A stretch of 64,000 bases of DNA from Gemmatimonadota bacterium (GTDB lineage Bacteria > Gemmatimonadota > Gemmatimonadetes > Gemmatimonadales > GWC2-71-9), in assembly GCA_009692185.1 (NCBI GenBank), contig SHZT01000005.1, positions 1 through 64,000 on the forward strand. Direction: 5' to 3'. Numbering within the stretch: the stretch's first letter is position 1; each line of letters starts with the position of its first letter. The position numbers were made by a program, and so were the translations under genes. Below are positions 166 through 30,842 of this stretch, piece by piece. The notes below the pieces were generated by a model, which was not told where the DNA came from, searched no databases, and saw only the letters and a program-made list of their open reading frames with translations.

Positions 166-561
166 CTAGGTCTCCAGCCGTTCGATCATGCGCCGGTCCT
201 TTTTCGTGGGCCTGCCCTTTCCTTCATATACTGGCGCGGGACTGTACCTGAGCTGGGTGGCGAGTGTCTCGCGCGCCAGGCGGCTGGATTCACTTTCCTG
301 GTACAAGAGGGCGGCCTCTTTTGCCGGCCCCCGGTGCTCCGACACGGTCATGACCGCAACCACGAACTCGAACGGCCCGCGTCGCAGGCGAACCTCGTCC
401 CCCACGTGCAGCGTCTTGGACCGTTTCGCGCGGTCACCGTTGACCTGGACCTTGCCGCCGTCCACCGCCTGCGCGGCGAGTGAACGGGTCTTGTAGAACC
501 GGGCAGCCCAGAGCCAGCGGTCCAGGCGACCCTCCCCATTTTCCTTGGCGGCCGGTTTCAA
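166..561 (-). CDS. hslR: S4-domain RNA-binding heat-shock protein (Hsp15 family)
   Basis: 131 residues. The N-terminal half (about residues 11-70) is an S4 RNA-binding fold with the family opening RLDRWLWAARFYKTRSLA, and the basic C-terminal tail (KGRPTKKDRR) is typical of Hsp15. Members of this family bind the large ribosomal subunit carrying stalled nascent chains and help recycle it. Start is TTG at 561, overlapping the stop of the upstream lipoprotein gene by TTGA, so translation is probably coupled. Length and motif order match the family; function is by family. Confidence 0.88.
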   Translation of the reverse strand: MKPAAKENGEGRLDRWLWAARFYKTRSLAAQAVDGGKVQVNGDRAKRSKTLHVGDEVRLRRGPFEFVVAVMTVSEHRGPAKEAALLYQESESSRLARETLATQLRYSPAPVYEGKGRPTKKDRRMIERLET

Positions 562-704
562 TTCTTGAGCGCGGGGGCCTTATGGACCTGCTCGAACATC
601 ATGGGGTCCATAGGGTCCATCGAGTCATTGGGATCCATGGGCCCACTGCACGCCGTGGCCAGCAGGCCGATGACGGCGACATACACAAACCATAGTTTTC
701 GCAC
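558..704 (-). CDS. 48-aa small lipoprotein with MDP repeats
   Basis: A hydrophobic signal peptide (MRKLWFVYVAVIGLLATAC) ends in a lipobox-like ATAC with the cysteine at residue 19. The mature part is only about 30 residues and has three Met-Asp-Pro repeats (MDPNDSMDPMDPMM). A GTG at 704 has GGGAG 7 bases upstream, better than the GTG at 749 that would give a longer frame. It overlaps hslR by 4 bases. No family recognised. Confidence 0.6.
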   Translation of the reverse strand: MRKLWFVYVAVIGLLATACSGPMDPNDSMDPMDPMMFEQVHKAPALKN

Positions 705-770
705 CGTAGTCTCCCGGAAAAGCTTTCTGCTGTAATGTACTCGCGTCACGTCCCCATCCGGAGTGTCGCC

Positions 771-1217
771 ATGGGTAGCCGATCGCGGGTCTTCATGGTC
801 CTCGCGCTTGCCGCGTGCCGGCCGGGAGGGGATGCCGCACGCAACTCATTGCTCGAGGCCGACCGCGTATTCGCGCGGCAGTCGCAGATCCACCGGCTGG
901 ACGCCTGGCTCGACGCGGTGGGAGACAGCGGCGTCGTTCTGCGCTTGAACGGGGCCGCGACACGGGGGCCGGCCGGGGTGCAAGACCGGCTGGCGCCTCT
1001 TTTCGCGGACTCGACCTACACGCTCACCTGGGAGCCGCTGTACGCCGACGTGTCGGCCTCGGGCGAGCTGGGGTATACGGTGGGGCTGTCGCAAAGTGGC
1101 CACCGCGGCCCGTCCGGACAGCCGGAGGTCAACGCGGCCAAGTACGTCACGGTGTGGCGGAAACGCGCAGATGGAACCTGGAGGGTCGCGCTGCAGGCGG
1201 AGGTTGGGGGGCAGTAG
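771..1217 (+). CDS. Lipoprotein with SnoaL/DUF4440-like fold
   Basis: 148 residues: signal peptide with lipobox LALAAC (Cys 16), then a compact alpha+beta domain whose pattern (early helix with an LDAWLDAV stretch, then strands ending in YVTVWRKRADGTWRVALQ) is that of SnoaL-like/DUF4440 proteins. These are usually small ligand-binding or uncharacterised proteins. The start ATG at 771 has GGAG at 760-763. It is divergent from the small lipoprotein gene, with about 66 bases between starts. Fold call is by pattern only. Confidence 0.65.
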   Translation: MGSRSRVFMVLALAACRPGGDAARNSLLEADRVFARQSQIHRLDAWLDAVGDSGVVLRLNGAATRGPAGVQDRLAPLFADSTYTLTWEPLYADVSASGELGYTVGLSQSGHRGPSGQPEVNAAKYVTVWRKRADGTWRVALQAEVGGQ

Positions 1218-1248
1218 GCGGATGGGCGGATGAGCGAATGAGCGGAAA
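1217..1248. repeat. 8-bp tandem repeat after stop codon (GGCGGATG)
   Basis: Four units of an 8-base repeat, [G/A]GCG[G/A]AT[G], begin on the last base of the stop codon of the SnoaL-like gene: two exact GGCGGATG, then AGCGAATG and a decayed unit. The same repeat follows another TAG stop at 4397. Confidence 0.75.
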
Positions 1249-1256
1249 GGACGGTC

Positions 1257-1601
1257 GTGGAAGTTCAGGTGTTCGGGTCGAAGAAGAGCGCCGACGTGCG
1301 TAAGGCCCTGCGCTTCTTCGCGGAGCGGCGGATCAAGACGCATTTCATGGATTTCGCGGAGCGGAGTCCGTCCCCCGGCGAACTCAAACGCTTCGGGCAG
1401 AAGTTCGGCGTCCGGAACCTGGTGGACCGCGAATCGAAGCGGTTCGTGGAGCTTGGGCTGGCGCATGCAATGCTCTCGGATGACCGGTGGATCGAGAAGC
1501 TGTGCGACGAGCCGATGGCGCTCCGGCAGCCGCTGGTGCGTTGCCAGCACAAGCTGACCGTCGGCCTCGCCGAGGAGGAGTGGTTGGGGTGGATAGCGTG
1601 A
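1257..1601 (+). CDS. ArsC/Spx-fold protein lacking the active-site cysteine
   Basis: 114 residues matching the ArsC/Spx thioredoxin-like fold: N-terminal strand VQVFGSKKSADVRKALRFF, a middle region ending LCDEPMALRQPLVRC and a closing VGLAEEEW. In arsenate reductases and Spx the loop after the first strand carries the catalytic or redox Cys; here the aligned residue is Ser (GSKKSADVRK), so redox catalysis by the usual route is unlikely. Start GTG at 1257. It is the first gene of an overlapping run with the GNAT, peptidase and propeller genes. Confidence 0.75.
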   Translation: MEVQVFGSKKSADVRKALRFFAERRIKTHFMDFAERSPSPGELKRFGQKFGVRNLVDRESKRFVELGLAHAMLSDDRWIEKLCDEPMALRQPLVRCQHKLTVGLAEEEWLGWIA

Positions 1602-2161
1602 CACTGGAAGGCCGCGTGGTGCGGCTCGAGCCGCTCACCCTGGGCCATGTCGAGGCGCTCGCCGCGGTCGGGCTCGACCCGGACCTGTGGCGGTGGACCA
1701 ACGCGCTCGTGCGCACGGCCGACGACATGCGCCGGTACGTGGAGACGGCGCTCCAGTGGCAGAAGGACGGCACCGCCCTGCCCTTCGCGACCGTGCTTCG
1801 GTCGGAGAACCGGGTGATCGGCAGCACGCGGTTCGGGAACATGGACGCCGCGAACCGGCGGGCGGAGATCGGCTGGACGTGGATCGGGCGGCCGTGGCAA
1901 CGGTCGGCGGTGAACTCGGAGGCCAAGTACCTCATGCTGCGGCACGCGTTCGAGATCATGAACTGCATTCGCGTGGAGCTCAAGACCGACGTGCTGAATG
2001 CGCAGTCCCGCGCCGCGATCGAGCGGATTGGCGGGAAAGAAGAAGGGACTCTCCGGAGCCACATGATCACGGAGAGCGGCCGAGTGCGCGATACGGTCTA
2101 TTACAGCATCATCGAGTCGGAGTGGCCGGCGGTGAAACGGGAGCTGGAGGCAGGGTGGTAA
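1589..2161 (+). CDS. GNAT acetyltransferase, RimJ/RimL type
   Basis: 190 residues. The order LEGRVVRLEPLTLGHVEAL, central strand RVIGSTRF, the RRAEIGWTWIGRPWQRS stretch and NAQSRAAIERIGGKEEGTLR are the features of RimJ/RimL-type N-acetyltransferases, which use acetyl-CoA. GTG at 1589 has GAGGAGGAG at 1572-1580 with 8-base spacing, so it is preferred over the GTG at 1598 that would overlap the upstream stop by 4 bases. Substrate unknown. Confidence 0.85.
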   Translation: MDSVTLEGRVVRLEPLTLGHVEALAAVGLDPDLWRWTNALVRTADDMRRYVETALQWQKDGTALPFATVLRSENRVIGSTRFGNMDAANRRAEIGWTWIGRPWQRSAVNSEAKYLMLRHAFEIMNCIRVELKTDVLNAQSRAAIERIGGKEEGTLRSHMITESGRVRDTVYYSIIESEWPAVKRELEAGW

Positions 2162-4463: not shown

Positions 4464-5903
4464 ATGATTCGGAACCAGATGGTAGTCGCTGCGGCGCTGC
4501 TCCTCACGACGTCCGTCGCGACAGCGCAATGGGCGCCGGGGAAACAGGGGAGCACCAACATGACGGTCGTGTCGCACCTGCCCCTGGGCGGTGCGGAGCC
4601 GCAGTGGCCGGCCGCGACCAACACGAACCCGGCCGCGGCGGCGGCAGCCGCCGCCCGCGCGGGCACCACGCCGATCAACGAGGCGGTGCGTAACCTGGGC
4701 AGCAAGACGGCCGACGTCACGATGGAGCAGGAACTCTCCCGCCCCTACGTGTACGTGTGCCACCGGTTCGCGCCAACCGGGTTCTGGATCATCAGCATCA
4801 AGGACCCGTCCAAGCCGCAAATCATCTACGACTGGAACATCGACAACCCGGAGCTGCACCGCGGCTCGGGCGCGCTGGGCCCGATGTACGTGAAGAGCAA
4901 GGGCCGGTACTACTTCATCCAGAGCTTCCAGTTCGGCGACGGCGGTCCTGACCGCGACCTGGGCGCGATCGTGTTCGACGTCACCGGCCTGCCCGACGTA
5001 TCCAAGATCAAGGAAGTCGCCCGGATTCGTGAGCCCAATTTCCCCGGCGGTTTCCACGAGAACTTCACCTACAAGCATTCCAACGGCTCCGCCCTCATGT
5101 TCACCACGGTGTCGGGCGGCGCGTTTGCCCACGTGTACGACATGGACAAGGTCGTCGCGACCGGGGGCAAGGAAGGCCTGGTCGGGAAGGTCCCCGTTCC
5201 GGTTGACCCGAACGCGGGCGTCCCGGGGCGCGGCTATCACGACATGTACGTGGCATTCGACCCCGCCACCCAGACGGACCGGTTCTACGGCGCCGGTGCG
5301 GGCGGCTACTACGTCTACGACGTGACCGACCTCAATCAGCCCAAGCTGCTCACATCCATGCAGCACCAGAGCGTCCGCGGCGGGCACACGTTCGTGGTGG
5401 ACCCGACCGGCCGCTACGCCGTCACCGAGACCGAGTACCGCTATTCGCCCCTGCTGATGTGGGACCTCAAGCCGGGGCTCGACGGCACGGCGAAGACCAT
5501 CACGCGTCCGGTGGGCGCGTGGACGGCCAACTGGAAGAACTACTCGCACAACATGGAAGTCCGCTGGCCCTACGTGTTCGTCGGTGCGTACGACGACGGC
5601 ATGCACGTCTTCAACATGATGGACCCGACCAACCCCTACACCGTCGGCTTCTATGACACCCACGACGGGCCCGATGCCAAGTCCACCCAGGAACAGGCGT
5701 TCGGCGTGTGGAGCCCGCAGATCCGGAACGCCGACGGCCTGATCGTCGCGACGGACTTCATCACCGGGTTCTGGGCGTTCAAGATGGAAGGCTTCAGCGG
5801 CTGGAACGGGCACCAGTGGGGCATGCCCAACATTTCGTCGGTCCAGGATTGGGACAACGGACCGGATGGATTGAAGAAGGCGCAAAGGATTAGTCGGAGA
5901 TAG
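4464..5903 (+). CDS. Secreted LVIVD-repeat beta-propeller protein (copy 2)
   Basis: 479 residues, paralogous to the preceding protein. It has a signal peptide (to ATA-Q), a low-complexity run of alanines near residue 55 that copy 1 lacks, and then the same blades (YVYVCHRFAPTGFWIISIKDP, FNMMDPTNPYTVGFYDT). AAGGAG at 4451-4456 gives a clean ribosome site 7 bases before ATG 4464. The shared C-terminal motif NISSVQDWDNGPDG marks the pair as a tandem duplication. Function unknown. Confidence 0.82.
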   Translation: MIRNQMVVAAALLLTTSVATAQWAPGKQGSTNMTVVSHLPLGGAEPQWPAATNTNPAAAAAAAARAGTTPINEAVRNLGSKTADVTMEQELSRPYVYVCHRFAPTGFWIISIKDPSKPQIIYDWNIDNPELHRGSGALGPMYVKSKGRYYFIQSFQFGDGGPDRDLGAIVFDVTGLPDVSKIKEVARIREPNFPGGFHENFTYKHSNGSALMFTTVSGGAFAHVYDMDKVVATGGKEGLVGKVPVPVDPNAGVPGRGYHDMYVAFDPATQTDRFYGAGAGGYYVYDVTDLNQPKLLTSMQHQSVRGGHTFVVDPTGRYAVTETEYRYSPLLMWDLKPGLDGTAKTITRPVGAWTANWKNYSHNMEVRWPYVFVGAYDDGMHVFNMMDPTNPYTVGFYDTHDGPDAKSTQEQAFGVWSPQIRNADGLIVATDFITGFWAFKMEGFSGWNGHQWGMPNISSVQDWDNGPDGLKKAQRISRR

Positions 5904-5909
5904 TGAACG

Positions 5910-5960
5910 CATAACGGCATAACGGCATAACGGCATCCCCACGCCGTCATGCCGTTATGC
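5910..5960. repeat. CATAACGG tandem repeat forming a hairpin
   Basis: Three units of CATAACGG plus CAT (5910-5936) are followed, after 12 bases, by ATGCCGTTATGC (5949-5960). The last 12 bases of the array (GCATAACGGCAT, 5925-5936) are its exact reverse complement. The hairpin lies between the propeller stop and the ribosome site of the next gene, so it could act as a terminator or limit translation. Confidence 0.8.
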
Positions 5961-5972
5961 AGCGGAGGGCAC

Positions 5973-7253
5973 ATGAACAGCCTGGCACGCCGTGATTTCG
6001 TTGGCCGAGTCCTCGGAGGCGTGGCCGCCGCCACGGTTGCTCCGTCTGCCATAGCCCGCGCGTCAGAACGCTGGCGCGAGCCGTTGCCGTCGCTCACCGC
6101 TCCCGACGACGAGGCCTACTGGAAGATGGTCCGGGACCAGTTCCCGATCCGGCCCGGTTACACCTTCCTGAACGCCGCCAACCTGGCTCCGTCCCCCTAC
6201 GCGGTCAGCGACACCGTCGCGGACCTCACCCGGGAGATCGACCGGGAGATGTCGCAGCAGAACCGGAGCAGGTTCCCCGCCCTGAGGGAGGCGGCCCGGA
6301 CCGGTCTGGCCGAGTTCCTGGGCGCCGAGGCGGACGAGATAGCGATCACCCGCAACACCAGCGAGAGCAACAACACGGTCCTCAACGGGCTCACGCTCGG
6401 CCGGGGCGACGAGGTGGTCATCTGGGACCAGAACCACCCGACGAACAACGTCGCCTGGGACGTGCGCGCGGAGCGCTATGGGTTCACCGTGATCAAGGTG
6501 AAGACGCCGCCGCCGCCGACCACGGCGGCCGCCCTCGCCGCACCGTTCCTCGCGGCCGTCACGCCGCGAACCCGGGTCCTCGCCGTCACCCACGTCTCCA
6601 GCTCGTCCGGCGTGGGCCTGCCGGTCAAGGAACTCTGCGCCGCCGCACGGCAGCGCGGCGTCCTGACCCTCGTGGACGGCGCGCAGACCTTCGGCTCCCA
6701 GTCCGTGAACCTGCACGACATGGGCTGTGACTTCTACACGGGGAGCGCGCACAAGTGGTTCATGGGCCCGCGCGAGACCGGCGTGCTCTACGTCCGGAAG
6801 GAACGCGCGGCCTCTCTCTGGGCCAGCGTGGTCGGCGTGGGGTGGGACGGGGCCAAGGACCGCGGGGCGCGGAAGTTCGAGTCGCTCGGCCAGCGCGACG
6901 ACGGCGCGGTCTCGGCGGTGGGGCGGACGGTGGAGTTTCACAACGCCATCGGGCGGGACCGGATTGACGCGCGGGTGCGGGCCCTGGCGGCCCACCTCAA
7001 GACGCGGCTCAAGGAAAAGGTGCCGGGCGTCCAGTTTCACACGCCGGTGGACGCAACGCTTTCCGGCGGCATCGTGATATTCACCCAGCCCAACCTGGAT
7101 CCCGGCCCCGCGGCGACCGCGCTGTATGAGAAGCACCAGATCACGTGCGCGACCACGGGCGGCGAATTCCGCGGCCTCCGGTTTGCCCCGCACATCTACG
7201 TGTCTCTCCAGGAACTCGACAGAGCGGCTGATGCGGTGGCAACTCTGGTCTGA
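5973..7253 (+). CDS. Tat-exported class V aminotransferase-like protein
   Basis: 426 residues. The N-terminus has a twin-arginine signal (SLARRDFVGRVLGG...) ending near IARA. The rest is a PLP fold-type I enzyme of the NifS/isopenicillin-epimerase-like group: TRNTSESNNTVLNGL, DGAQTFG and the Schiff-base lysine in TGSAHKWFMGP. Reaction unknown; cysteine desulfurase or C-S/C-N lyase are family options. ATG 5973 has GGAGGG just upstream. The stop codon lies inside a long composite hairpin. Confidence 0.85.
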   Translation: MNSLARRDFVGRVLGGVAAATVAPSAIARASERWREPLPSLTAPDDEAYWKMVRDQFPIRPGYTFLNAANLAPSPYAVSDTVADLTREIDREMSQQNRSRFPALREAARTGLAEFLGAEADEIAITRNTSESNNTVLNGLTLGRGDEVVIWDQNHPTNNVAWDVRAERYGFTVIKVKTPPPPTTAAALAAPFLAAVTPRTRVLAVTHVSSSSGVGLPVKELCAAARQRGVLTLVDGAQTFGSQSVNLHDMGCDFYTGSAHKWFMGPRETGVLYVRKERAASLWASVVGVGWDGAKDRGARKFESLGQRDDGAVSAVGRTVEFHNAIGRDRIDARVRALAAHLKTRLKEKVPGVQFHTPVDATLSGGIVIFTQPNLDPGPAATALYEKHQITCATTGGEFRGLRFAPHIYVSLQELDRAADAVATLV

Positions 7254-7370
7254 GCGCCGAGAGGCAGGACGCCGGACGCTTCTGACCCGAGGCGCTCGAC
7301 CGAGAAAGGAAGCGGCCGTGCGCCTCGGGTCTTTTCGCGTCCTTCGCCCTGCCCCCTCGGCGCTCAGACC
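7247..7370. repeat. 124-base composite hairpin between convergent genes
   Basis: Outer arms GGTCTGAGCGCCGAG (7247-7261) and CTCGGCGCTCAGACC (7356-7370) are perfect complements over 15 bases; inner arms GACCCGAGGCGC (7284-7295) and GCGCCTCGGGTC (7320-7331) over 12. The stretches between also match imperfectly. The outer left arm includes the stop codon of the aminotransferase gene. It sits between two converging genes and probably ends transcription from both sides, though it lacks a T tract. Confidence 0.8.
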
Positions 7371-7379
7371 TGCCTGGTT

Positions 7380-7988
7380 CTACCTGACTGGGTTCTTCAG
7401 AACCCCTACCCCACTCACTTCGATCTCCACCGTGTCGCCGGGCGCCAGCGGCCCGACGCCGTCCGGCGTGCCCGTCGCGATCAGGTCCCCCGGTTCCAGC
7501 GTCATGATCCTGGAGATGTAGGACACCAGGTACACGAGGCCAAAGACCATCTCCGAGGCCTTCGCATGCTGGCGTTCCTTCCCGTTCACCCGCGCCATGA
7601 CCTCGATATCGCCGTACTTCGCCGGCAACGGCACGACGCGCGGGCCCATGGGGCAGAACGTGTCAAAACCTTTCGCGCGGGTCCACTGGCCGTCCGCCTT
7701 CTGGAGATCGCGAGCCGTGACATCGTTGACGCAGGTGATGCCGGCGATCCCCGCGATGGCCTCGCTCTCGCTGACATTCCGCAGCCGCTTGCCGATCACG
7801 ATGCCGATCTCGGCCTCGTGTTCGACCTGGTTCGAGTCCGGCGGCAGGATGATGGTATCGCCATCCGCGATCACGGCGGATGGTGGCTTGAGAAACAACA
7901 GCGGCTTGTCCGGCACGTCGTTGCCGAGTTCCTTGGCGTGGGCAGCGTAGTTCCGGCCGACACAAACGATCTTTCCGGGACGATTCAC
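7380..7988 (-). CDS. Fumarylacetoacetate hydrolase-family protein
   Basis: 202 residues, the length of a single-domain FAH enzyme. KIVCVGRNYAAHAKELGN, the metal-binding EHEAEIGIVIGK, CVNDVTARDLQ, KGFDTFCPMGP and GDLIATGTPDGVG are the family landmarks. Members hydrolyse or decarboxylate 2-oxo acids with C-C cleavage (acylpyruvases, oxaloacetate decarboxylases). GTG 7988 overlaps the stop of the esterase gene (GTGA); a longer frame exists but would run into that gene. Confidence 0.9.
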   Translation of the reverse strand: MNRPGKIVCVGRNYAAHAKELGNDVPDKPLLFLKPPSAVIADGDTIILPPDSNQVEHEAEIGIVIGKRLRNVSESEAIAGIAGITCVNDVTARDLQKADGQWTRAKGFDTFCPMGPRVVPLPAKYGDIEVMARVNGKERQHAKASEMVFGLVYLVSYISRIMTLEPGDLIATGTPDGVGPLAPGDTVEIEVSGVGVLKNPVR

Positions 7989-8686
7989 TTCTTTCCCTCC
8001 TTTTCCCGTTCGTGGATTTCGGGCATCACCGACACGAGCACCTTCCACACATTGTCGGCGAGGATCCGGTGGCCTGCCGGCGTCGGATGAATGCCATCGA
8101 CCTGGTTGAGCTCGGGATGCCCCCCAACCCCCTCCAGCAGGAACGGGATCAGCGCCGCCTTGTTGTCGCGAGCGAGGTCCACGAACATCCGCCGGAATTC
8201 CTCTGTGTAGGGGCGGCCCAGGTTGGGCGGCGCCTGCATGCCGGCCACGACGATCTGCACCTGCGGATACTTTGCCCGCGTGCGACTGATGATTTCCTGG
8301 AGGTTTTCTTTCGCCGCCTTGAGTTCGAGCCCGCGCAGGGCATCGTTGGCCCCCAACTCAAGCACCAGGACGGCCACCGGCTGGCCCAGCAGCCATTCGA
8401 TGCGACGGAGCCCGGCCGCGGACGTCTCGCCGGACACGCCGGCGTTCACCACTTCGACGGCGAGGCCGAGGGAGTCAAAGCGGTTGTGGAGGAGGGCCGG
8501 GTAGGCCTCGTCGGGATCAACTCCGAGCCCCGCCGTAAGTGACGTACCAAAGAACAGGATCCTCGCATGTTCCGGGGCGGACGGGACGATCGAGACGGTC
8601 GAGTCCGCACGCACCTGACTCACCTCGCGTCTGCCACAAGCCGTGAGAACACACAAGAGAAGCGCCGTCAGTATCTTTGTCGTCAT
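7985..8686 (-). CDS. SGNH/GDSL lipoprotein esterase (TesA-like)
   Basis: 233 residues: lipoprotein signal with LTAC, then an SGNH hydrolase. Block I is FFGTSLTAGLG (GTS in place of the usual GDS but nucleophile Ser kept), the Gly block is VVNAGVSGETSA, Asn is in LGANDALRG, and the Asp/His pair is in DGIHPTPAGH. Members are arylesterases or lysophospholipases on the cell envelope. The start codon overlaps that of the divergent propeller gene in the sequence CATG (8684-8687). Confidence 0.88.
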   Translation of the reverse strand: MTTKILTALLLCVLTACGRREVSQVRADSTVSIVPSAPEHARILFFGTSLTAGLGVDPDEAYPALLHNRFDSLGLAVEVVNAGVSGETSAAGLRRIEWLLGQPVAVLVLELGANDALRGLELKAAKENLQEIISRTRAKYPQVQIVVAGMQAPPNLGRPYTEEFRRMFVDLARDNKAALIPFLLEGVGGHPELNQVDGIHPTPAGHRILADNVWKVLVSVMPEIHEREKEGKK

Positions 8687-8698
8687 GCTGACAAGCTA
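8672..8698. promoter_or_regulatory. Overlapping divergent starts with leaderless -10-like boxes
   Basis: The two start codons share CATG at 8684-8687. On the plus strand TATCTT (8672-8677) lies 7 bases before ATG 8685; on the minus strand TAGCTT (8698-8693) lies 6 bases before ATG 8686. Both fit TAnnnT. Neither gene has a Shine-Dalgarno sequence. This suggests leaderless transcripts with each promoter inside the other gene. No good -35 box is visible. Confidence 0.4.
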
Positions 8699-9581
8699 TC
8701 GCTCATTCCTCGCGCTCGGGGTCGTGGCGGCAACATCGGCCTGCGGGTTGTTCGACGGCGGCAGTGACACGCCGCGTCCCATCGTCTACACCGCCCTGCA
8801 CAACACCAGGGAAGACGTCCAGATCCATGTTTCCGACGACCTGGGCCACCATCCCAAGAAGATTACCGACACGCCCGGCGAAAAGGCCCAGCCCGCCTGG
8901 TCACCGGACGGGGCCAAGATCGCGTTCTCCTGGGAGACGGAGTCCCAGATTCTCATCTATACCATGAACGCGGACGGCTCCACCCCGGTGCAAATCACGC
9001 CCAAACTGACGTCCCCGAACGTCGCCCTCTACGATTCGCCGGCCTGGGCGCCGAGTGGCACGCAGTTGGCGTATGGCGTGGTGGACGGGGGCCCGATCCG
9101 GATCATCAATATCGACGGCTCCGGCCTCCGTCAGCTCACGCCGGCCAACATCTCGGCGGACGACCCGGCGTGGTCGCCGAACGGCCAGAAGATCGCGTTC
9201 TGGGGCGTGGTCACAGCTGCCACGACTCCCAGCGCGGACATCTACGTGATCAATGCGGACGGCACCGGGCTGGTCAACCTGACCAATTCGGTCGCCACGG
9301 AAACAGACCCCTCCTGGTCGCCCGACGGCACCAAGATCGCGTACGACGCGGACGGCGGGACCAGCGGGCTCAAGATCTTCGTGATGGATGCCAGTGGCGC
9401 GAATCCGCGCATGGTGGCCCAGCACGCTGCCGGGCAGACGTTCGCGCATCCCCGCTGGTCTCCGGACGGCGCTCATCTCGTGTTCGGTTCCGCGGACGGG
9501 ATCTGGACAGTGAACCTCGACGGCACCAACCTCCGGCTCATCATCACCGATCGCCTGGCCACGGACCCGGACTGGCACTAG
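8685..9581 (+). CDS. TolB-like beta-propeller lipoprotein
   Basis: 298 residues. Lipobox ATSAC after a short signal peptide, then five or six PD40/TolB blades with the repeat core PAWSPDGAKIAF, DPAWSPNGQKIAF, DPSWSPDGTKIAY, HPRWSPDGAHLVF. TolB-like propellers act in the periplasm, often as binding platforms. Start taken at 8685 because the signal peptide begins there; an ATG at 8643 would add a basic extension. Followed 3 bases later by the ABC ATPase gene. Confidence 0.82.
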   Translation: MLTSYRSFLALGVVAATSACGLFDGGSDTPRPIVYTALHNTREDVQIHVSDDLGHHPKKITDTPGEKAQPAWSPDGAKIAFSWETESQILIYTMNADGSTPVQITPKLTSPNVALYDSPAWAPSGTQLAYGVVDGGPIRIINIDGSGLRQLTPANISADDPAWSPNGQKIAFWGVVTAATTPSADIYVINADGTGLVNLTNSVATETDPSWSPDGTKIAYDADGGTSGLKIFVMDASGANPRMVAQHAAGQTFAHPRWSPDGAHLVFGSADGIWTVNLDGTNLRLIITDRLATDPDWH

Positions 9582-9584
9582 CGG

Positions 9585-10268
9585 ATGCTGATTGTCGCGG
9601 AGAATCTCGAACAGACCTACCTGAGCGCGGGCAAGCCGCTCACTGTTCTTCGAGACGTCAATCTCTCCATCGCGCCGCAGGAGTTCGTCGCCATTGTCGG
9701 TCCGTCGGGGAGCGGCAAGACCACGCTGCTCGGCCTCCTCGCGGGGCTCGACGTGCCGTCCCGCGGATCCGTGCGGATTGATGGGCTGAGCCTGGGCGAC
9801 CTCACCGAGGACCAGCGGGCGCGGCTCCGCGCCGAGAAGGTCGGGTTCGTCTTCCAGACATTCCAGCTGATCCCGACGCTCACGGCGCTCGAGAACGTCC
9901 TCGTTCCCATCGAGCTCCGTGGCAATGGCGCAGGGCGCACGGCGCACGGGAAGGCCACCGAGATGCTCGAGCGGGTCGGCCTGGGCGACCGGGTGCATCA
10001 CTACCCGGCCCAGCTGTCGGGCGGCGAACAGCAGCGGGTGGGGCTGGCGCGGGCGTTTACCAGCGAGCCCAAGATTCTCCTCGCGGACGAGCCCACCGGA
10101 AGTCTCGACACGGAGACGGGGAAAACGGTGATCGCGTTGCTCGAGCAGCTGAATCGCGACGCGCAGACCACCCTCGTCCTGGTGACGCACGACGGGGCCC
10201 TCGCTTCCCGCGCCCGCCGAGTCATCCGGCTCGAGGGCGGGAAGATCGTGTCCGACTCGACGACCTAG
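9585..10268 (+). CDS. ABC transporter ATP-binding protein, LolD/MacB type
   Basis: 227 residues with Walker A GPSGSGKT, Q-loop FVFQTFQLIPTLTALENV, signature LSGGEQQR, Walker B ILLADEPTG and H-loop VTHD. This is the LolD/YbbA-like class that pairs with FtsX-type permeases to move lipoproteins or other substrates out of the inner membrane, or to drive mechanotransmission. The permease gene follows immediately and shares one base. Confidence 0.92.
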   Translation: MLIVAENLEQTYLSAGKPLTVLRDVNLSIAPQEFVAIVGPSGSGKTTLLGLLAGLDVPSRGSVRIDGLSLGDLTEDQRARLRAEKVGFVFQTFQLIPTLTALENVLVPIELRGNGAGRTAHGKATEMLERVGLGDRVHHYPAQLSGGEQQRVGLARAFTSEPKILLADEPTGSLDTETGKTVIALLEQLNRDAQTTLVLVTHDGALASRARRVIRLEGGKIVSDSTT

Positions 10269-23421: not shown

Positions 23422-23552
23422 TCGGCGAGAGCCCGACCCGCGCATTGTTCGTGACCGGTCGCGTGGCCATCCTGGCGTGGGTGGACGGCGACGCGCCGGC
23501 ATGTTTTGCGGGTGTGAAGGACTACCTGCGGTCAGTGCAGTTTCGGCAGTAG
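23418..23552 (+). CDS. 44-aa small ORF in operon
   Basis: GTG 23418 overlaps the previous stop (GTGA) and the frame runs to TAG 23550-23552: a short protein with a hydrophobic core (VAILAWVDGDAPACFAGV). Its placement in the chain of overlapping junctions is the main support; no homology is known. Confidence 0.4.
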   Translation: MIGESPTRALFVTGRVAILAWVDGDAPACFAGVKDYLRSVQFRQ

Positions 23553-23557
23553 GTGCC

Positions 23558-24355
23558 GTGACTGCGTCGCCCGCCGAGCCGTTCAGCGTGGTGAAGTGGT
23601 ACCTCGATTGCACGGATCCGGACGGCCGCTCCGCGATCTGTTACTGGGTATCCGTCGCGTGGCGCGGCTTCGCGCTCACCTGGCACAGCGTGGACCTCTA
23701 CGAACCCGGCTCACCACCCCACCGCGCAAGCCTCACGTCCGTCCCACCACCCACTCTCGCAGACGGAAGGATCACCTGGTCCTCCCCTGTTCTCCGTTGC
23801 ATGGCCACCGTCGAGCCCAGGAACCCTCCCCTGTCGGCCGTTCTTTTTCAGGATGACACCGGCCATGTGCACTGGCACTGCGACGCGCCCATCGGCCTCG
23901 CGTCCATCGCGGTGGCCGGTCATGCGCCCGTCTGCGGCAGCGGATACGCCGAGCACCTCGAGATGACCGTGGCCCCATGGCACCTGCCGATAACCGAGCT
24001 GCGGTGGGGCCGGTGGGGGGATGCCGACACGTCGCGATCGCTGGTCTGGATTGATTGGCGGGGAAAGACCAACCGCGCGTGGGCTTTTCTCGACGGACAC
24101 GAACAGGACGAGATACACGTGAGCGACACGACCGTCTCGGTGGGAGACACCACGCTCACGCTCGAACGACACCAGACGCTCGTACATCGCGGGCTTTCGG
24201 ACCTGTTGGATCCCATCCCCGCCCTCCGCGCCGTGCTCCCGGCGTCGCTCCTCAAGGTCAGTGAAACAAAGTGGCGGGGGACCGGCACACTGAGCCGTCC
24301 GGGAAGCGCTCCGGTCACCGCGCCGGCCGTCTACGAAATGGTTCGCCTCGGATGA
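23558..24355 (+). CDS. Possible CrtC/AttH-like lipocalin-domain protein
   Basis: 265 residues, no signal peptide from GTG 23558. KWYLDCTDPDGRSAICYWVSVAW, GSGYAEHLEMTVAPWHLP and TELRWGRW resemble the conserved strands of the carotenoid 1,2-hydratase/AttH-like lipocalin fold (GxGYxE and WGR motifs). If so it might hydrate or bind a hydrophobic chain; the call is by motif spacing and is uncertain. The stop overlaps the following start (ATGA). Confidence 0.45.
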   Translation: MTASPAEPFSVVKWYLDCTDPDGRSAICYWVSVAWRGFALTWHSVDLYEPGSPPHRASLTSVPPPTLADGRITWSSPVLRCMATVEPRNPPLSAVLFQDDTGHVHWHCDAPIGLASIAVAGHAPVCGSGYAEHLEMTVAPWHLPITELRWGRWGDADTSRSLVWIDWRGKTNRAWAFLDGHEQDEIHVSDTTVSVGDTTLTLERHQTLVHRGLSDLLDPIPALRAVLPASLLKVSETKWRGTGTLSRPGSAPVTAPAVYEMVRLG

Positions 24356-26262
24356 TCGCGCGTATCGCCTACGCCCTGGTGTTCGTGGTCCTGCTTCCCC
24401 TGCTGCTGACACTCTGGGCCGCGCGGCTGGACACGCTGGTGCGTCTCCCGGCCTACGGAACTCCAGCAATGGGCCTCGGGTTGGCGATCGCCGGGCTCGG
24501 GCTCATGGCGCTCGCCACCCGCGAGCTGTGGGTCCGGGCGCGCGGGCTCCCGATGAGCCCGTTCCCGCCGGCCCGCTTGGTCACGACCGGCGTCTATCGC
24601 GTCATAGACCACCCGATTTACCTCGGTGCGGTGCTGGTGGCTGCGGGAGCGTCGTTAGCGACGCATTCGGGCGCCGGTCTCTGGATCGTGACACCCACGC
24701 TCGCGCTGTCGGCAATCGCGTTCGTCGCCGGGTTCGAACGGGAGCAGACGCGGCGCCGGTTCGGCACATTACCACCGCCCGCATTCGCTCTCCCTGGAGC
24801 GGGCAACGGCCCACCGACGGCAACCCAGCGCCTCTCCGTGTACGTGCTGGTCCTCTTGCCCTGGCTGGTGCTTGACCTGGCCGTCGAATTCCTCGGCGTG
24901 CCGCCTGATGCGCGCTCGACGTACCTACCATGGGACGGGAACCTGCCGGTGATCCCGTGGACCGAGGTGATCTACATCACGACGTACGCGGCCGTCGTGC
25001 TGGCGCCGCTCGCTGCGCGTAGCCAGCGCGACTTACGCCGGTTCGCGCGGAGCGGTCTCGTGGCCACGGCGTTGATTATCCCGCTTTATCTCTTGTTGCC
25101 ATTCGTGGCCGAGGCCAAGCCCGTCATCGGAAACGGATTCTGGGAGAACCTCCTGCGGCTGGAACGCGTGGGTGACGAGGCGGTCACCGCCTTTCCCGCG
25201 TTTCACGTCGTGTGGGCCTGCATCACGGCGCGGCTATACGGCTCGACCTGGCCCAGCGCGCGGTTCGCGTGGTGGGGGCTCGCCCTGGCAGTGGGGGTGA
25301 GCTGCGTGACCACAGGCATGCATTCGCTGGCAGACGTGGTCGCGGGGTTCGCGGCGTATGGACTCGTGGAAGCCGGCCCGGCTATCTGGCGCGCCATGCG
25401 GAAGTCGGCCGAGGAAGTGGCGAACTCGTGGCGCGAGATCGCGGTCGGCCCGGTGCGATTCCTGAATCACGGCTTGTACGCCGCAGCGGGCGGCGCCATG
25501 GGCCTCGCGCTCGCGCTGAACCTCGCGGGCCCCGGCCAGCTCCAGTGGCTCGTGACCATGTCCCTCGTGTCCATTGCCGGGGCCAGTGCGTGGGCGCAGG
25601 TCATCGAGGGCTCGCCCCAGTTGCTTCGTCCCTACGGCTACTTCGGATCGGTGTTCGGCGTGGTCTTGCTGGGCGTCGGAATTGGCGCCATTGGAGGTGA
25701 CGGGTGGCTCGTGCTCGCCGCATTCGGCACCGGCGCCACGCTCACACAAGCCATTGGCCGACTGCGTTGCCTGGTACAGGGTTGCTGCCACGGCCGTGAG
25801 GCACCCGAGGCCCTCGGCATCCGCTACACGCACCCGCGCTCACGGGTAGTGCGACTGAGCCCGCTCGGCGTGGTCCCGCTCCACCCCACGCAGGTCTATT
25901 CCATCGCGTCCACGCTCTTCGTCGGGGCGGTAATGCTCCGACTCTGGACCCTCGGCGCGCCACTGCACATGATCGTCGGCGCCTATTTCATCCTGGTTGG
26001 CCTGTCCCGGTTCGTCGAAGAGCATTTTCGCGGCGAGCCGCAGACCGCGGTGCTCGCGGGCCTTCGCCTCTATCAATGGTTGGCCATCGCGTTCGTCGTG
26101 GCGGGGGCCGTCGTGACGACGCTGGGCGCCGACCCGGCGCCGCCTATCGCCGGGTTCGACCCACGAATCCTCCCGGGCGTTCTCGCCGTCGGCCTCTTCG
26201 CCTACCTCGCGTACGGGGTGGACTTTCCCCGAAGCGAGCGCCGGTTCTCCCGCCTGGTGTGA
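24352..26262 (+). CDS. Three-module membrane protein: ICMT-like + PAP2-like + Lgt-like
   Basis: 636 residues, about 15 membrane segments. Module 1 (1-165): isoprenylcysteine/PE methyltransferase-like, LVTTGVYRVIDHPIYLG (76-92). Module 2 (165-345): PAP2 phosphatase-like of the inositol-phosphorylceramide-synthase type, FPAFHVVWA (281-289) and TGMHSLADVVAGF (321-333). Module 3 (370-590): Lgt-like, GRLRCLVQGCCHG (469-481), LHPTQVYS (510-517) and SRFVEEHFRGE (552-562). Lipid headgroup modification is an inference. ATG 24352 overlaps the previous stop. Confidence 0.8.
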   Translation: MIARIAYALVFVVLLPLLLTLWAARLDTLVRLPAYGTPAMGLGLAIAGLGLMALATRELWVRARGLPMSPFPPARLVTTGVYRVIDHPIYLGAVLVAAGASLATHSGAGLWIVTPTLALSAIAFVAGFEREQTRRRFGTLPPPAFALPGAGNGPPTATQRLSVYVLVLLPWLVLDLAVEFLGVPPDARSTYLPWDGNLPVIPWTEVIYITTYAAVVLAPLAARSQRDLRRFARSGLVATALIIPLYLLLPFVAEAKPVIGNGFWENLLRLERVGDEAVTAFPAFHVVWACITARLYGSTWPSARFAWWGLALAVGVSCVTTGMHSLADVVAGFAAYGLVEAGPAIWRAMRKSAEEVANSWREIAVGPVRFLNHGLYAAAGGAMGLALALNLAGPGQLQWLVTMSLVSIAGASAWAQVIEGSPQLLRPYGYFGSVFGVVLLGVGIGAIGGDGWLVLAAFGTGATLTQAIGRLRCLVQGCCHGREAPEALGIRYTHPRSRVVRLSPLGVVPLHPTQVYSIASTLFVGAVMLRLWTLGAPLHMIVGAYFILVGLSRFVEEHFRGEPQTAVLAGLRLYQWLAIAFVVAGAVVTTLGADPAPPIAGFDPRILPGVLAVGLFAYLAYGVDFPRSERRFSRLV

Positions 26263-29552: not shown

Positions 29553-30842
29553 CTACTTCGAAAAGTCGAATGCCCCGCTGAACGGATCCGCCGCCGCATC
29601 CCGCGCAGTCAAGGCCGCAATCCCGAACCGCTTCTCGATCAACGCCAGGATAGACGTCGTGTCGTAGACCTTGTGGTCCACATAGGCGGTCTTCGCGAAT
29701 GGCGAGATAATCACCGCAGGTACGCGTGCACCCGGCCCCCACCGATCTACCACCGGGGGCGACACGTGATCGTAGAACCCGCCGTGTTCATCGTACGTCA
29801 GGATGATGACGGCGTCCTTCCAGTTGGGCCCGTTTTTCACCGCGTTCACCAGCGCCACAACGTGGTTCTCGCCGGAGATGATATCGGTGTAACCGGGGTG
29901 CTCGTTCTCCGTGCCCAGCGGCTTGACCCAGGACACGGCCGGCAGCGTGCCTGCCGCGGCCGCGGCGAGGAACTCGGCCTCGTCCTTGAGGTGGGCCGCG
30001 CGGCCCGCCGTTCCGGCCGCGTAGTTCGCCCAATAGACGAACGGGTGATGATGGAACTGGAACAGCGGATCGGGACTCCCCGCCACCGCGTTGTTCCAGC
30101 CGCCCGCGTACCAGGCCCAATCCACGTTCTTCGCGGTGAGCCGGTCGCCGATGTTGGGGATCGTGAGCGAGGGGAGCCGGTTGGCGACGGGCGTGGACGC
30201 AGGCATCGGCGTGTTCACGCTGAACAGTGTATTGACACCGTAGCCGTCCGGCGTCACCGCGCCGTCCGTCACCAGGTTCCCCGAACCGTCCAGCGCGGCC
30301 ACCATGCTCGCGGGCGCGTTGGGGAACGGGGGCGTCGCCGCCGCGATCAGCCAGATATGATTCAGGAATGACCCACCGAACGCCGCGTGGAAGAACCGGT
30401 CGAGGACCGTGTACTGCTGGGCCAGCGCCGCGATGGGTAGCTGCATGGAGTGGTAGTAGCCCATCGCGAGGCCCTTGGCGTCGCTCACGTACACGAACCG
30501 GTCCATCTTGCCGCCGTTGATCTGCTGCTGCTCCTGGTAGAACCGGTGCACCAGGTCCCGGGTCGCCACGCTGGCCGGCAGGTACTGTTCGATGGCAAAC
30601 GGGGCGTTGGGCAGGCCGGCCGGAATCATCGATCCCGCCACCTGCGGGAGAGTCGGGTAGATCGTATTGGAGCCGTCGGTCTGCTTCGCCGCCGACGCCG
30701 CCGCGGCAATACCATCCGCCCCGGGGAACTCGCCATACAGGTTGTCGAAGCTCCGGTTTTCCATGAAGACCACGATGATGTGCTTGATGCTGGTGATGTC
30801 CCTGCCCTGCGCTGCTGCCTCACCCTTGCAGCCGGCAAGCAC
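29553..30842 (-). CDS. Lipoprotein phosphoesterase (acid phosphatase/phospholipase C family)
   Basis: At least 429 residues of the phosphoesterase family: IKHIIVVFMENRSFDNLYGEFPG (metal Glu/Asn), NIGDRLTAKNVDWAWYAGGW, GENHVVALVNAV, ILTYDEHGGFYDHVSPP and RVPAVIISPFA. GTG 30842 is the only standard start, yet it leaves only MLAG before the lipobox cysteine. The frame continues upstream as a good signal peptide (RTTLVLAVAVLAGC) beginning at a GTC (30872) or CTG (30860). True start unresolved; activity on phospholipids or phosphomonoesters by family. Confidence 0.82.
   Translation of the reverse strand: MLAGCKGEAAAQGRDITSIKHIIVVFMENRSFDNLYGEFPGADGIAAAASAAKQTDGSNTIYPTLPQVAGSMIPAGLPNAPFAIEQYLPASVATRDLVHRFYQEQQQINGGKMDRFVYVSDAKGLAMGYYHSMQLPIAALAQQYTVLDRFFHAAFGGSFLNHIWLIAAATPPFPNAPASMVAALDGSGNLVTDGAVTPDGYGVNTLFSVNTPMPASTPVANRLPSLTIPNIGDRLTAKNVDWAWYAGGWNNAVAGSPDPLFQFHHHPFVYWANYAAGTAGRAAHLKDEAEFLAAAAAGTLPAVSWVKPLGTENEHPGYTDIISGENHVVALVNAVKNGPNWKDAVIILTYDEHGGFYDHVSPPVVDRWGPGARVPAVIISPFAKTAYVDHKVYDTTSILALIEKRFGIAALTARDAAADPFSGAFDFSK

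Follow-up and report, generated by a model that had tools for sequence, protein, structure and literature searches.

The locus and the encoded three-domain protein

The analyzed stretch of DNA, further referred to as the window, comprises 64,000 nucleotides of contig SHZT01000005.1 from a Gemmatimonadota bacterium (GenBank assembly GCA_009692185.1). Two adjacent genes in it are considered here, one coding for a three-domain integral membrane protein and the other for its soluble partner (Table 1). The ATG codon at 24352 overlaps the TGA stop codon of the preceding open reading frame (ATGA). The partner is probably translated from GTG at 23558, which gives a protein of about 265 aa.

Table 1. 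Features of the two-gene locus (positions in the window; residues of the three-domain protein)
Feature	Coordinates	Strand	Remarks
Partner gene, soluble CrtC/AttH-like beta protein	23477..24355	+	Directly upstream, translationally coupled
Three-domain integral membrane protein	24352..26262	+	636 aa, 18 predicted transmembrane helices
Domain 1, PEMT/ICMT-type membrane methyltransferase	24352..24807	+	Residues ~1–152; site predicted cytoplasmic
Domain 2, PAP2_3 / IPC-synthase-SMS-type phosphotransferase or phosphatase	24820..25371	+	Residues ~157–340; site predicted exoplasmic
Conserved linker E354–H373, PAP2 to Lgt-like domain	25411..25470	+	Predicted cytoplasmic
Domain 3, Lgt-like	25456..26115	+	Residues ~369–588; predicted inverted, site cytoplasmic
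Extra C-terminal helix and conserved tail GVDFPxSxRRFxRL	26161..26259	+	Residue conservation

The domains were assigned using Pfam with curated cut-offs. PEMT (PF04191, residues 73–138, E 7e-9, 36.4 bits with the cut-off of 25), PAP2_3 (PF14378, residues 206–337, E 4e-10, 40 bits with the cut-off of 27) and LGT (PF01790, residues 430–589, E 2e-17, 63.7 bits with the cut-off of 24.9) all scored above the thresholds in the single 636-aa chain, confirming the original prediction of three lipid-acting modules fused in one protein. The predicted model of the whole protein has pLDDT 93 and pTM 0.92.

Domain 1 had been described as ICMT/PE-methyltransferase-like; the PEMT assignment holds, whereas ICMT (PF04140) scored 18.5 bits, below its cut-off of 24. 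This domain carries the methyltransferase motif GLPM..PP..V..G.YR...HPIY.G and E129; P67, P72, P73, P88, Y90, G92 and E129 are invariant in the homologues, the last four as residues of the conserved SAM-site motif. The assignment of domain 2 to the IPC-synthase type agrees both with the PF14378 match and with the presence of the His-His-Asp triad, conserved at 96% (H285), 97% (H324) and 97% (D328). Foldseek matches of this domain are SMSr (8ijq), a bacterial IPC synthase (9vj4) and Aur1 (9ivc), with weak E-values and probabilities of 0.99–1.00. In domain 3, both predicted motifs, GRLRCLVQGCCHG and HPTQ, were found, GCCHG being residues 477–481. The Foldseek search with the whole model retrieved Lgt from Escherichia coli (5azb, E 5e-5, TMt 0.63); the NCBIfam Lgt equivalogs scored far below their cut-off (58 vs 334 bits). 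N358, W360 and R369 of the linker and D624, P626 and L635 of the C-terminal tail are invariant, and G622 and S628 of the tail are conserved at 90% or more.

The architecture is retained in 61 aligned full-length homologues from at least nine phyla (36–63% identity): LGT was detected in 61 of them, PEMT in 60, PAP2_3 in 56, and ICMT, weakly, in 22. The same fusion occurs in independent assemblies, including complete chromosomes (e.g. Minicystis rosea CP016211), and therefore the possibility that three genes had been joined by mis-assembly is excluded. An artefact of gene prediction or assembly is likewise of negligible probability: GC content stays even along the locus, and no point in favor of an artefact was found. 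Two copies look broken, due to decay or assembly errors. One (L152, G030:C40) lacks the catalytic part of PAP2, residues ~237 to 345, and the other (L155, G273:C213) is split over several frames.

Membrane topology and the Lgt-like domain

The 18 transmembrane helices were identified by reading the secondary structure of the predicted model, and lysines and arginines (K+R) were counted per loop in 61 homologues, with loop boundaries taken from the same model. The counts alternate over 19 loops, the N-terminus being inside, with 33.7 K+R in "in" loops vs 6.0 in "out" loops; for the Lgt part the alternation holds in 61 of 61 sequences. The "in" loops include the methyltransferase loop 58–90 and the Lgt loops 472–517 and 553–576, and the "out" ones are the PAP2 loops carrying H285, H324 and D328. 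Canonical Lgts, used as a control, have the opposite charge pattern in the equivalent loops: 3.1, 3.7 and 3.1 K+R in loops 1/2, 3/4 and 5/6, compared with 0.4, 0.2 and 1.1 in the three-domain family, and the net charge of the head loop is −2.8 vs +3.1.

Helix parity yields the same arrangement. There are 12 helices from the methyltransferase loop to the GCCHG loop, which places these loops on the same side, and five from the methyltransferase loop to the first PAP2 motif, which places the latter on the opposite side. SAM is cytosolic; hence, parity places the Lgt-like site in the cytoplasm and the PAP2 site outward even if the charges are disregarded. Thus, the methyltransferase and Lgt-like sites are predicted to be cytoplasmic, and the PAP2 site, to face outward. 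Canonical Lgt faces the periplasm (PMC4728403), and relative to it the Lgt-like domain seems to be inverted in the membrane, given the loop charges and the helix parity.

In the alignment with E. coli Lgt, R143, R239, E243 and R246 correspond to R470, R553, E557 and R560, all invariant. G145, N146 and E151 are replaced by R472, C473 and C478, respectively, and these replacements are invariant in the homologues. In E. coli Lgt, activity is lost upon the tested substitutions of R143, G145, E151, R239, E243 and R246 (PMC4728403). The same genome contains a separate canonical lgt gene (G000:C5:26529-27284) with the sequence GRVGCFLVQDDYG; thus, cysteine at the N146 position is by itself unremarkable. 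Canonical Lgt is separate from the three-domain protein in other sampled genomes as well, and LGT-family matches were observed in all 41 Gemmatimonadota genomes sampled.

An Lgt-like protein with a GCCKG motif is encoded at another locus (L143, G038:C1:3843000-3846800, positions 405–2036, minus strand) by a 543-aa open reading frame with a long extra C-terminal part. Hence, GCCxG is not special to the three-domain family. As read from its sequence, the lysines and arginines of this protein are placed as in canonical Lgt. An "Lgt-like" lipidating enzyme is only posited in the paper on myxosortase (PMC11980579).

A co-inherited two-gene module

A scan of 84,980 species genomes yielded at least 80 loci (the best 80 of 114 relatives listed); almost all alignments span the full length, with 36–63% identity. 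Among the matches listed, the carriers belong to Acidobacteriota, Bacteroidota, Ignavibacteriota, Gemmatimonadota, Planctomycetota, Verrucomicrobiota, Myxococcota, Zixiibacteriota, Calditrichota and Pseudomonadota, the last phylum being represented by Neisseria wadsworthii, Actibacterium atlanticum and a Woeseiaceae MAG. The original prediction named no characterized protein combining all three domains; the architecture is common across phyla, and no function is assigned to it in the literature searched. On the phylogenetic tree, the window copy clusters with two Acidobacteriota copies and with those from genomes of the same order, and four other Gemmatimonadota copies stand apart from it, which suggests transfer of the gene between phyla. 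The search for plasmid or phage carriage of the module gave no matches.

The partner gene is located directly upstream of the three-domain gene in 85 of 93 loci, always on the same strand, the median distance between the two being about 8 nt; loci without a detected partner are mostly truncated by contig ends or contain broken genes. Strong matches to the membrane protein were obtained in only about 16 of 395 Gemmatimonadota genomes. The partner is found in 16 genomes of the same set, and both proteins, in 14 (Fisher's p 7e-22, ignoring the kinship of genomes). Over 46 loci, the pairwise identities of one protein correlate with those of the other at 0.82, again with kinship ignored. The three-domain protein is therefore one half of a two-gene, co-inherited module, in which the fusion is conserved and nearly all residues of catalytic type are kept. 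A partner homologue with no three-domain protein nearby is present in a closed genome (L172, G074, positions 6689–7558, minus strand).

The window copy of the partner has no Pfam or NCBIfam match, and no consistent Pfam match was observed in 50 members; searches of PDB sequences with profiles of the partner and of the membrane protein gave no matches. The AlphaFold2 model of the partner (pLDDT 95) is similar to AttH (2ich, E 2e-9, probability 1.00, TM-score ~0.5), other Foldseek matches being kievitone hydratase, CghA/Fsa2/Phm7 and 25-phosphosteroid lyase. TM-scores near 0.5 indicate a fold class shared with CrtC/AttH rather than close kinship. Hence, by its predicted fold, the neighbor coupled through ATGA is CrtC/AttH-like, as had been proposed. 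No signal peptide was seen in it by eye.

The window genes flanking the module encode an M1 peptidase, YHYH, acetamidase, NUDIX and DUF1801 proteins upstream, and DUF4159, Cpn10, a phosphoesterase and pyrimidine phosphorylase downstream; they name no pathway. A PF04185 phosphoesterase (phospholipase C / acid phosphatase family) is encoded at 29553–30842 on the minus strand, 3 kb downstream and opposite to the module, with no sign of being conserved with it. In a search for a larger conserved operon, nothing was found beyond the two genes, save for a UbiA prenyltransferase in one Acidobacteriota clade. It is encoded just upstream of the CrtC-like gene, in the same orientation, at seven Bryobacterales-related loci (L010, L011, L012, L016, L021, L022 and L023). 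Its best matches, all below cut-off, are a generic prenyltransferase model and geranylgeranylglycerol-phosphate geranylgeranyltransferase (five of the seven loci by Pfam).

In a Gemmatimonadota-phylum genome lacking the three-domain protein, a split locus was observed (L151, G219:C313:22000-38000, positions 4753–9926). It comprises a CrtC-like gene, an Orn/DAP/Arg-type PLP decarboxylase, a fusion of PEMT with a PlsC acyltransferase, an ABC ATPase and a divergent PAP2_3 protein, followed by a dicarboxylate symporter. This may be the same functional set in separate parts, without Lgt. The locus was found once, and a wider search for the PEMT-PlsC protein returned only G219; therefore it is no more than suggestive.

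Possible function and comparison with known systems

The original prediction allowed for an unusual membrane lipid or a lipoprotein anchor. The former is the best reading, and the latter is disfavored in view of the predicted cytoplasmic position of the Lgt-like site and of the canonical lgt present elsewhere in the genome. The three-domain protein probably makes an unusual membrane lipid rather than ordinary lipoproteins, given that its Lgt-type domain appears upside-down. As the leading, still tentative, explanation we suggest that the two-protein module serves to build or modify a methylated polar membrane lipid of an unusual kind. In this scheme, the Lgt-like domain would take diacylglyceryl from an anionic phospholipid in the cytoplasmic leaflet and pass it on to a cytosolic nucleophile, a small molecule or a lipid, instead of an exported prolipoprotein. 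The PEMT-type domain would then methylate the product using SAM, and the soluble CrtC-like partner might hold the hydrophobic intermediate or perform acid-base chemistry on it. After flipping, the PAP2 domain would swap or remove the phospho-head group in the outer leaflet, a step modeled on sphingomyelin or IPC synthases, yielding a betaine-like or N-methylated polar lipid. A search of the betaine-lipid literature revealed nothing relevant. The split genes of G219 form a set resembling lipid synthesis, which favors this explanation. On the other side, that locus is known from one genome, no conserved neighbor names a pathway, the topology is a predicted one, and the PAP2 Foldseek matches are weak by E-value.

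The UbiA genes point rather to isoprenoids. One could imagine a prenyl chain being hydrated or cyclized by the CrtC-like protein, with PAP2 acting on prenyl phosphates; the methyltransferase would cap the product, which the Lgt-like domain would join to a glyceryl moiety. The geranylgeranylglycerol-phosphate geranylgeranyltransferase similarity at the Bryobacterales-related loci and the presence of kievitone hydratase and a steroid-acting lyase among the CrtC-fold relatives agree with such an enzyme. We nevertheless consider it unlikely, as UbiA is confined to a single clade of the tree, isoprenoid genes are not enriched near most copies, and the PAP2 fold matches are phospholipid head-group transferases, not only prenyl phosphatases. 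Lipidation of proteins in the cytoplasm, in parallel to CAAX processing, seems rather improbable. Here the inverted Lgt-like domain would put diacylglyceryl on a cysteine of a cytosolic protein or peptide, and the ICMT-related domain would methylate the carboxyl. Transfer of diacylglyceryl to cysteine is indeed the Lgt chemistry (PMC4728403), the methyltransferase and Lgt-like sites share one side, and domain 1 has weak ICMT kinship (22 of 61 members). However, PEMT outscores ICMT, the two-gene module includes no conserved substrate gene, and this reading does not account for the PAP2 and CrtC-like parts.

The LGT match above the cut-off and the invariant equivalents of R143, R239, E243 and R246 (roles: PMC4728403) might imply an accessory prolipoprotein diacylglyceryl transferase, the second in the genome, that bears extra domains and has a periplasmic site. 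This is very unlikely: by charge and helix parity the site is predicted to be cytoplasmic, arginine and cysteine occupy G145 and E151, positions sensitive to substitution in E. coli Lgt (PMC4728403), and the genome has its canonical Lgt. Family searches score such proteins as Lgt and thereby imply a second lipoprotein enzyme; the evidence presented here says otherwise.

A bolder version of the lipid-tailoring explanation, possible but doubtful, is that an enzyme of the Lgt fold has become inverted in the membrane and moves diacylglyceryl inside the cell, this widespread module thereby producing methylated membrane lipids of a new, thioether- or ether-linked class. To our knowledge, an Lgt fold acting on the cytoplasmic face would be a novel instance of topology inversion affecting an entire domain of a lipid enzyme, and the membrane lipids of Acidobacteriota, Bacteroidota, Planctomycetota, Gemmatimonadota, Myxococcota and Verrucomicrobiota are poorly mapped. 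An operon of two genes lends itself to expression in E. coli, which opens a direct route to the product. All three domains belong to known families. No description of the three-domain fusion, the CrtC-like partner, the pairing of the two or the inverted Lgt orientation was found in the open-access literature searched, and an earlier account may exist elsewhere.

Among known systems, the PEMT/ICMT family (PF04191, PF04140) shares with domain 1 the PP..V..G.YR...HPxYxG and Glu motifs and the cytoplasmic site, domain 1 differing in its N-terminal fusion to PAP2. Domain 2 has the fold of IPC synthase, sphingomyelin-synthase-related protein and Aur1, the PSxH-like and TTGxHxxxD motifs with the triad residues, and a predicted exoplasmic site. 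In contrast to these enzymes, to which it is only 13–14% identical, it is fused to other domains, and ceramide is not indicated as its substrate. Domain 3 and Lgt (PF01790; 5azb) have in common the seven-helix fold, the GR motif, HPTQ and the four charged residues listed above, whereas the predicted inversion, the Arg, Cys and Cys at G145, N146 and E151, the fusion to two other domains and the extra C-terminal helix set domain 3 apart. The predicted fold of the partner is that of the CrtC / AttH / kievitone hydratase / CghA-Fsa2 group (2ich, 7a0q, 6kbc, 7e5t; E down to 2e-9), but the partner is shorter, paired with a membrane protein and has no Pfam family match. Finally, the split locus resembles the module in having together a CrtC-like protein (27–29% identity), a PEMT domain (37%) and PAP2_3 (31%), and differs from it by the additional PlsC-type acyltransferase, Orn/DAP/Arg-type decarboxylase and ABC ATPase, and by the absence of an Lgt-like protein.
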